Assembly: GCF_023205095.1 (NCBI RefSeq)
Contig: NZ_CP046242.1
Span: forward strand, 1,539,001-1,603,000
Direction of reading: 5' to 3'
DNA: 64,000 nucleotides
DNA from: Bizionia sp. M204
GTDB taxonomy: Bacteria; Bacteroidota; Bacteroidia; Flavobacteriales; Flavobacteriaceae
The stretch's first letter is position 1, and the number at the start of each line of letters is the position of its first letter. A program made the translations under genes and the position numbers. Below the pieces are notes generated by a model. That model saw only the letters and a list, made by a program, of their open reading frames with translations. It had not been told where the DNA came from and made no database searches. Positions 15,798 to 17,841 of this stretch are shown piece by piece.

Positions 15798-16343
15798 ATG
15801 AAGAAACCTTATAAAACTGTAGAATGTTCGCGTATTAGCATTGCAGAATTAATGCAGCCATCGCATTCTAATTTTGGTGGTAAAATTCATGGTGGTTATA
15901 TGTTGAGCCTAATGGATCAAATTGCATATGCCTGCGCTTCCAAACATTCAGAAAACTATTGTGTAACTGCTTCTGTGGATACCGTAAATTTTTTAGAACC
16001 GGTGGAAATTGGTGAGCTTGTTACCATGAAATCTTCTATTAATTATGTAGGAAAAACATCTATGGTTGTTGGAATTCGTGTGGAAGCGGAGAATATTAGA
16101 ACAGGACATGTTAAACATTGTAACTCATCCTATTTTACCATGGTTGCCAAAGATGATGAGGGAAAATCGTCGCCGGTTCCTGGACTCATTTTATCTTCTT
16201 TAGAAGAAGTAAGGCGATTTTTAAAGGCTATTGAACGTAATAAAACCAAGAAAAACAGGCTTATTGAGTTTAATAGTACCGATTTTGTTTTAGAAAATTA
16301 TTTGGAAGAATTAGCCGATTACAATATTAAAATTGACCTATAA
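15798..16343 (+). CDS. Acyl-CoA thioesterase, hotdog fold (YciA/BFIT-type)
   Basis: 181 residues. Hotdog-domain hallmarks: PSHSNFGGKIHGGYMLSLMDQIAYACASKHS (the N/D-x-x-GxxxGG active-site helix, residues ~22-50), VTASVDTVNFLEPVEIGELVTMKSSINYVGKTSMVVGI and the VKHCNSSYFTMVA strand. These enzymes release free fatty acid and CoA from acyl-CoA in the cytoplasm. The ~45 residues beyond the core (ERNKTKKNRLIEFN...) extend the usual length slightly. The gene follows the preceding frame by one base. Confidence 0.88.
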   Translation: MKKPYKTVECSRISIAELMQPSHSNFGGKIHGGYMLSLMDQIAYACASKHSENYCVTASVDTVNFLEPVEIGELVTMKSSINYVGKTSMVVGIRVEAENIRTGHVKHCNSSYFTMVAKDDEGKSSPVPGLILSSLEEVRRFLKAIERNKTKKNRLIEFNSTDFVLENYLEELADYNIKIDL

Positions 16344-16380: not shown

Positions 16381-16402
16381 TTTTGATTACCAAGTATTTG
16401 GA

Positions 16403-16514
16403 TATTTCAATTAAATATTCGATATTTGATTATTCCTTTTAAAAGGAATATATTAAATTATTCCTTAATTATGGAATATTTTAAATTATTCATAAATAAA
16501 GGCATATAATTACA
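16403..16514 (+). repeat. Tandem 28-bp dyad repeats in the satD leader
   Basis: Two units at 16431-16458 and 16459-16486 share 23 of 28 positions, and each carries TATTCC-N8-GGAATA (the first is a perfect 20-bp palindrome at 16431-16450). A third degenerate unit begins at 16487 in exact register (ATTCA-N8-GGCAT), and a weaker fourth match may start at 16403. Dyad centres at 16440.5, 16468.5 and 16496.5 are exactly 28 bases apart. Likely protein-binding iterons or stacked leader hairpins; the adjacent SatD protein has its own helix-turn-helix. Confidence 0.7.
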
Positions 16515-16526
16515 ATATTAACAAAT

Positions 16527-17135
16527 ATGACTAGCGTTATTACAGGCGATATAATAAACTCTAAAAACGTCAAACCAGCTATTTGGTTGCCGCAGCTCAA
16601 GGATGCGCTAACCTTTTTAGAGTCCGACACGCGCTTGTGGGAAATATACAGAGGTGATAGCTTTCAAATAGAACTAAAAAACCCTCAAAACAGCTTTTTA
16701 CATGCTGTTTATATCAAAGCTTGTGTTAAAATGATAAAAGGCTTAGATGTACGCATAGCAATAGGAATTGGTACTAAAACATATCAAGGTGACACCGTAA
16801 CCGAATCAAATGGAGAAGCCTTTCAATTTTCTGGTGAAACATTAGAAAACCTAAAAAAGGACAAGATTAATTTAAAGCTAAAAACCCCGGATCCTATTTT
16901 AAATAGAGACCTAAATTTATACTTTAAATTAGCCTTGATGAGCATGGATAATTGGACCGTAAATTCTGCCGAAATTATAAAAACACAGATTGAAAATCCC
17001 CATAAGATTCAAAGTGAAATTGCACAACTAATTGGTATTAATCAAGAAGCCGTAAGCAAACGAATGAAACGCGCTAATCTTGAAGAAATATTAGAACTGA
17101 ACAACTTGTATATCATTAAAATAAGTAACTTGTAG
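16527..17135 (+). CDS. SatD-family protein with C-terminal helix-turn-helix
   Basis: 202 residues. The N-terminal SatD domain begins SVITGDIINSK (residues 3-13), continues with WEIYRGDSFQIEL (38-50) and RIAIGIGTKTYQGD. The C-terminus holds a DNA-binding helix-turn-helix, IQSEIAQLIGINQEAVSKRMKRA (~165-188). The family is named after the streptococcal sat (secretion and acid tolerance) locus; its activity is not established. Asp8 (TGDI) and Asp44 (RGDSF) plus the RIAIGIG strand are laid out somewhat like the palm of GGDEF/class III cyclase domains, which is only my inference. It ends one base before the DUF3307 gene and sits behind tandem dyad repeats, suggesting an autoregulated pair. Confidence 0.85.
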   Translation: MTSVITGDIINSKNVKPAIWLPQLKDALTFLESDTRLWEIYRGDSFQIELKNPQNSFLHAVYIKACVKMIKGLDVRIAIGIGTKTYQGDTVTESNGEAFQFSGETLENLKKDKINLKLKTPDPILNRDLNLYFKLALMSMDNWTVNSAEIIKTQIENPHKIQSEIAQLIGINQEAVSKRMKRANLEEILELNNLYIIKISNL

Positions 17136-17136
17136 G

Positions 17137-17841
17137 ATGATTTTATTGATAAAACTTGTTTTAGCACATTTAATTGGAGACTTTATCCTTCAACCAAAAT
17201 CTTGGGTAAAAAGTAAGGAAAAGAGAAAACTAAAATCGCCTAAACTCTACTTACATGTTGCCATTCATATGGCGTTGTTATTTATTCTCGTTTGGGATGT
17301 ATCCTATTGGGCATTACTACTAATTATTACAGTATTGCATTTTATTATAGATGCTATCAAACTGATTTTTCAAAATAAAAAAATCAAACGTCAATGGTTT
17401 TTTATTGATCAGCTGTTACACCTCATCAGTATTTTTGCTGCTTATTTCATCTACACAAATACATGGTTTACAACTTCTGAAATACCTACTGAATCTGCTC
17501 TACTTCTACTTACCTGTTTGCTATTTTTAACCAAACCTGTTTCTATAATCATGCAGGCTATTTTTAGCAAATGGAATATAGAGAAACTCACCAAGGGCAA
17601 CGAATCATTAAAGGATGCAGGCAAATATATAGGAATTCTTGAGCGTCTTCTGGTATTCCTATTTATTGTTATGAATCATTGGGAAGCTGTAGGTTTTTTA
17701 ATTACCGCAAAGTCCGTTTTTAGATTTGGTGATTTAAAAGAAAGTAAACACCGAAAACTCACGGAATACATTTTAATTGGCACGCTTATTAGCTTCGGAA
17801 TTGCCATCATTACCGGTATCATATTTCAAATATTGGTATAA
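17137..17841 (+). CDS. DUF3307 polytopic membrane protein, partner of SatD
   Basis: 234 residues with about six transmembrane segments. The start IKLVLAHLIGDFILQPKSWVKSKEKRKLKSPKLYLHVAIHM carries the DUF3307 signature: H10/D14 (AHLIGDFILQP) and a second histidine-rich helix (LHVAIH, then LHFIIDAIK and QLLHLI). The conserved in-membrane His and Asp residues (H-x3-D, H-x3-H, H-x3-D, D-x3-H) could bind a metal or form a catalytic centre; no function is known. The C-terminal third (KDAGKYIGILERLLVFLFIV...AKSVFRF) is also typical. Directly follows SatD and is closed by the terminator at 17845. Confidence 0.85.
   Translation: MILLIKLVLAHLIGDFILQPKSWVKSKEKRKLKSPKLYLHVAIHMALLFILVWDVSYWALLLIITVLHFIIDAIKLIFQNKKIKRQWFFIDQLLHLISIFAAYFIYTNTWFTTSEIPTESALLLLTCLLFLTKPVSIIMQAIFSKWNIEKLTKGNESLKDAGKYIGILERLLVFLFIVMNHWEAVGFLITAKSVFRFGDLKESKHRKLTEYILIGTLISFGIAIITGIIFQILV

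Follow-up and report, generated by a model that had tools for sequence, protein, structure and literature searches.

What reads the tandem dyads that precede the satD-DUF3307 gene pair in Bizionia sp. M204, and to what end? The pair is widespread in Bacteroidota, and in the open-access literature we found no described function there for either gene, no functional study of SatD or DUF3307 and no operator or DNA-binding function for SatD. We analysed a stretch of 64,000 nucleotides around the locus (the window; contig NZ_CP046242.1, positions 1,539,001 to 1,603,000), for which an initial annotation had proposed that the repeats are bound cooperatively by the adjacent HTH protein or form an RNA switch of repeated hairpins. 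We consider it highly probable that the array is the operator of SatD, through which the protein would repress its own satD-DUF3307 operon by cooperative occupancy, with relief via its cyclase-like domain.

The array occupies positions 16431-16506, between a thioesterase gene that ends at 16343 and satD, which starts at 16527. Sequence and repeat finder agree on two perfect TATTCC-N8-GGAATA dyads and one degenerate dyad spaced exactly 28 bp apart, none of them assigned to a strand; this bears out the initial annotation, which had described two good units and a degenerate one with dyad centres 28 bases apart, the first being a perfect 20-bp palindrome. That palindrome is unit 1 (TATTCCTTTTAAAAGGAATA, 16431-16450, half-sites 16431-16436 and 16445-16450), followed by unit 2 (TATTCCTTAATTATGGAATA, 16459-16478, half-sites 16459-16464 and 16473-16478) and by the degenerate unit 3 (TATTCATAAATAAAGGCATA, TATTCA-N8-GGCATA, 16487-16506, half-sites 16487-16492 and 16501-16506), found by the repeat finder, whose TATGCC-type half-site recurs among other Bizionia arrays. 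A degenerate left half-site, TATTTC, lies in register at 16403-16408 on the forward strand, 28 bp upstream of the first full half-site and inside the promoter spacer; it is here that the feature had first been taken to begin. By base count the linker between dyads is 8 bp, equal to the 8 bp inside each dyad, so that half-sites follow every 14 bp in alternating orientation and the array is better described as six 6-bp half-sites at a 14-bp step. A lattice of this kind, with its alternating two-fold axes, would be required by subunits chained through two sorts of two-fold contact.

The motif ATTCC-N8-GGAAT occurs twice in the window, both times in the array, against a mean of 0.05 in 100 dinucleotide shuffles of the window, none of which reached two. 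The longer pattern TATTCC-N8-GGAATA-N8-TATTCC-N8-GGAATA matches with no mismatch at 16431 and with two at 16459, as compared with 0.00 occurrences in the shuffles. The array is real and chance is excluded. No second array with fewer than three mismatches across three half-sites was found in the 3.36-Mb Bizionia genome; the array thus appears unique to satD in this organism, which makes autoregulation the best reading.

An operator array would be expected upstream of satD orthologues and in letters that change together with the recognition helix of the protein, and both were found. SatD homologues are present in 63 of 149 related genomes and in many beyond that set, the closest named relative being Bizionia algoritergicola with 96% SatD identity. 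When the leader was compared across relatives, as the initial annotation had suggested, the array proved to be conserved upstream of satD orthologues, being present by a fixed, stricter score threshold in 171 of 184 Bacteroidota SatD loci, and 97.8% of the 184 scored above all their own shuffles. Some of the 13 loci below the threshold are explained by fragmentary genes or wrong starts. The array finder is biased to half-sites beginning with TAT, a bias from which autocorrelation is free; in the first 60 loci the best autocorrelation shift upstream of satD was 28 bp in 41 and 29 bp in 12, and a control stretch further upstream gave no comparable peak. Across relatives the spacing is 28 bp, or 29 bp in some lineages, and the half-sites are spelled TATTCC, TATCAC, TATCGG/TATCGT, TATTAG, TATAAG, TATTAC, TATCTG and in other ways. 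The gene upstream of the array varies by lineage while the array remains with satD.

The variable spelling allowed us to ask which SatD residues follow the letters, in a set of 150 non-redundant loci and about 180 SatD positions. Corrected mutual information with half-site bases 4, 5 and 6 is highest at residue 178, residues 174 and 175 coming close to it, and in the structure model all three belong to helix 173-182, which is the second one in the predicted HTH. Among SatD pairs that are 55-70% identical outside the HTH, bases 4-5 are shared in 90% when residue 178 is the same and in 14% when it differs. On a tree from which the HTH had been left out, residue 178 changed on the same branch as bases 4-5 in 22 cases, as compared with 5.2 expected (p 1.4e-12 from a simple count of branches), followed by residues 175 and 174, while the best column outside the recognition helix reached only 4e-4; these p-values come from parsimony on a single FastTree tree with all branches weighted equally. 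A strict independent-pairs test on well-supported branches left too few pairs, and co-change counts were used with the other columns as control. About half of the residue-178 changes have no accompanying base change, many of these being between small or similar residues. Lys at this position mostly pairs with TATTCC, Glu with TATC[G/T], Gln with xAG, and Thr, Ser, Asn or Met mostly with TATCA; the helix scaffolds VSKRxKR and ISKGLKR, though different, both pair Lys178 with TATTCC. By these computations the half-site letters co-evolve with the SatD recognition helix.

The same pairing was met from the side of the DNA. A DNA-pattern search covered 299 genomes from the family of the window and 151 from a Pedobacter-type family, and SatD was then looked for in 44 of those with matches. 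The pattern picked out 52 arrays, of which 43 precede a satD on the correct strand at a distance of 2-121 bp, and in the first 30 SatD proteins Lys178 accompanies TATTCC in 15 of 16 cases and Glu178 accompanies TATCGG in 14 of 14; the blindness of this search is weakened by the prior removal by eye of coding-looking matches (the TATTTCACT family and a few singletons) and by the possible presence of some of its species among the earlier named loci. SatD as the binder, which was one part of the earlier proposal, is strongly supported by array conservation and by the co-evolution of the letters, whereas its other part, cooperative binding, is suggested by the geometry. SatD thus gains a likely role as a DNA-binding autoregulator, with a site predicted for every species and a residue-to-base code open to test by single substitutions. 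The loci also form a natural data set in which specificity shifts jointly in a regulator and in every copy of its tandem operator. The locus L010, where two TATTCC dyads are followed by TATCA-type dyads upstream of position 1501 and SatD has Gly178, belongs to this data set, its mixed array looking like a possible intermediate between two spellings. In another genome (locus L057 of G056) the satD copy holds several in-frame stops and is apparently decayed, and by inspection even distant SatD homologues in other classes seem to be accompanied by dyad repeats with other letters.

In regards to the proteins, satD (16527..17135, forward strand) would encode a nucleotidyl-cyclase/GGDEF-like palm domain, at about residues 1-125, fused to a C-terminal HTH that carries the recognition helix 173-182 with Lys178, as judged from profile, model and covariation. 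The family, PF16264, is named after the sat locus of Streptococcus mutans; the window protein matches its profile over nearly the full length at 25 bits, below the curated cut-off of 29, which several orthologues pass, and 44 of 55 aligned relatives match at E 0.01. The structure model is confident (pLDDT 96), and its predicted palm fold (residues 1-125) resembles the DosC GGDEF domain with VIA Z up to 9.8. A sequence profile of this domain also places DosC and Ma1120 on top, at weak E-values of 0.1-0.2, and aligns RGDSF of SatD to GGDEF and GDGF. Asp8 and Asp44 are invariant in 55 SatD sequences; Asp44 aligns to the Asp of the GGDEF or cyclase GDGF motif, and Asp8 is without a residue-by-residue alignment. 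SatD resembles class III nucleotidyl cyclases and GGDEF proteins in its predicted palm fold and may share their two metal-site aspartates, but the identity is only about 9-20%, the palm is fused to an HTH and catalysis is putative. The cyclase-like domain points to a nucleotide signal.

The partner gene (17137..17841, forward strand) encodes a DUF3307 protein (PF11750, 102.3 bits against a cut-off of 23), presumably a membrane protein, with an all-helical model and many invariant His and Asp residues, for which a fold search returned no PDB match with E below 1. It forms a predicted operon with satD, with which it is conserved as a pair, its start typically overlapping the satD stop by about 4 bases across loci. 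Seventeen loci at first seemed to lack DUF3307, an artefact of a strict motif, as most of those examined carry it directly downstream. Neither protein matched defence-system models, and SatD was absent from phage records and had one distant match in plasmid records. A 4HBT-type thioesterase gene adjoins the pair, upstream in the window (15798-16343), and by sequence likeness a thioesterase-like gene lies downstream of DUF3307 in L086 and perhaps in L177.

How such sites could act depends on where the promoter lies. In the window, a candidate -33 element TTTG (16397..16400) and a candidate -7 element GATATTTG (16421..16428), both on the forward strand, precede unit 1, the latter set within the register of the linkers and fitting TAnnTTTG, the consensus of the flavobacterial -7 box (PMC9723704). 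TAnnTTTG is enriched in the arrays (121 occurrences, against 12 for the reversed pattern), and 78 of the 121 are at one phase, starting 8 bases past the dyad centre. In most loci a TTG lies about 20 bp upstream of the in-register TAnnTTTG, a consensus match only, with a spacing that follows partly from the 28-bp repeat. A candidate -7 box (TAnnTTTG or GAnnTTTG) is present in 114 of 150 loci, and in 61 of these 114 all modelled dyads are upstream of the last such box. In six Bizionia loci a promoter-like block, TTTG-N20-GATATTTG, is conserved directly upstream of unit 1, its two TTTG elements keeping the 28-bp register, so that there the units may be part of the leader and work as a roadblock further downstream. 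The placement of the units in the 5' leader, as first suggested, is plausible for Bizionia only; in most lineages with a candidate -7 box the last box is at or beyond the downstream end of the array.

These observations would fit together as follows. SatD would read the 6-bp half-sites through its C-terminal HTH, and paired half-sites would form 20-bp dyads that recur every 28 bp, which is also the distance between the -33 and -7 TTTG of the candidate promoters. The candidate -7 boxes keep the register of the dyads and are placed in the linkers, so an array covered by SatD would hide the promoter or, in Bizionia, the edge of the promoter together with the bases transcribed first. In this way SatD would repress satD-DUF3307 through the cooperative filling of neighbouring sites, and repression would be relieved through its cyclase-like N-terminal domain.

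The alternative that survives best, which we still regard as rather improbable, is that SatD binds the array but activates the operon. Dyads placed between in-register TTTG elements 28 bp apart are compatible with it at the sequence level, as a dyad inside the -33/-7 spacer is the arrangement of MerR-type activators. However, repression is the better fit to the several in-register sites, to a -7 box that half-site and linker overlap and to autoregulation by a single component, and many of the promoters are near the -7 consensus and should need no activator.

It is quite unlikely, in turn, that an unlinked regulator, for instance of XRE type or HipB-like, owns the sites and regulates DUF3307 with SatD as a bystander, even though the geometry of the array has a close counterpart elsewhere. 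The O1-O2 operators of HipB in E. coli hipBA read TATCC-N8-GGATA with 28 bp between operators, as counted on the published O1O2 oligonucleotide (PMC3376134, PMC3920265), and thus share with the SatD array a half-site that starts with TAT, the N8 inside the dyad and the 28-bp step; the HipB operon is autoregulated, with cooperative binding, and among PDB sequences the HTH of HipB comes closest to that of SatD, though the match is weak (E 0.04). This likeness concerns the HTH and not the full proteins; HipB is a small antitoxin without a palm domain, its partner is the kinase toxin HipA and not DUF3307, and the letters of SatD half-sites vary by lineage. We therefore take HipB O1-O2 as a working precedent for how binding could be cooperative, by analogy, and not as evidence of membership. 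Some arrays do lie away from satD, and one genome (G1073) has an array and no detected satD, as a separate binder would allow; but the recognition helix covaries with the letters above any other SatD column, and the letters of the array predict residue 178 in further genomes. The tandem C-boxes upstream of the genes of controller (C) proteins, which are small HTH autoregulators, offer a further comparison for the arrangement, but C proteins also activate, serve restriction-modification genes and have another protein architecture.

We give equally little credence to the dyads being repeated hairpins in a 5' leader, whether as a switch, an attenuator or a protein-binding RNA. The leader folds better than its shuffles (-19.9 as compared with -10.35 kcal/mol, z -3.55), as any perfect dyad would, and the candidate promoter upstream of the units in Bizionia would let them be transcribed. 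Within dyads the complementarity is 0.860, no higher than the 0.857 obtained when the two halves come from different dyads of one array, and for the inner eight bases, too, pairing within a dyad has no advantage over pairing between dyads. This points to selection on one half-site common to the dyads, as expected of DNA that a protein reads. Compensatory pairing specific to each hairpin was sought across arrays and not seen, and an Rfam search gave no family match. Among lineages that have a -7 candidate, most place the last box downstream of all or nearly all dyads, so that most of the array would not be transcribed there, and an RNA switch would not be expected to show strict 28-bp phasing or to covary with a protein helix. 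We therefore rejected the RNA switch of the initial annotation on the within- versus between-dyad comparison, Rfam and promoter position. A selfish or structural repeat without regulatory role would explain why the tandem units are alike within each locus, but it is extremely improbable given the fixed place upstream of satD in distant lineages, the dyad symmetry, the in-register -7 boxes and the covariation with the protein.

With SatD retained as the probable reader of the arrays upstream of its own gene, the arrays away from satD and the one in G1073 (L442:3047-3108, TATCGG), a genome without a detected SatD, indicate that there are further roles or further binders. A second TATCGG array is carried by four genomes that belong to one genus (L435, L436, L437, L438); it lies near trpS in three and, in one, where a small gene has its 3' end, and it may serve as a terminator and not as an operator. 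In Pedobacter-type genomes, too, TATCGG-type arrays were seen apart from satD (L440:2986-3033, L439:3025-3072, L441:3075-3108 and L218 at about 2039-2086): the one in L440 is followed by TATATTTG and immediately precedes a phage terminase and major head gene, that in L439 is near a phage ATPase, and that in L218 is near a DnaC-like loader. In Bizionia algoritergicola, two related prophage-like regions (L219:3019-3052 and L220:2615-2648) have three half-sites in the host spelling TATTCC/TATGCC near start codons. Prophages may use the SatD of the host and, if these arrays are confirmed, phages would be using the private spelling of a host regulator. It is a tentative and on balance doubtful extension that SatD is a nucleotide-responsive, cyclase-fold regulator forming a chain of alternating dimers on a 14-bp lattice that drifts with the recognition helix, and that prophages carry host-spelled lattices which tie their own genes, such as the terminase operon, to it.

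Lattices of TATCG type are also found in IMG/VR viral contigs (L239-L358), in at least 120 stretches, 48 of them with at least four exact half-sites, as compared with 46 stretches for a reversed-pattern control, none of which has four half-sites; no SatD was found in the viral stretches with these lattices that were examined. Arrays of four TATTCC half-sites in viral contigs lie inside coding sequence and were judged to be coding coincidences. About half of the four-site viral cases come from one phage group, in which the array lies between convergent genes and resembles a bidirectional terminator, and the rest are single contexts.
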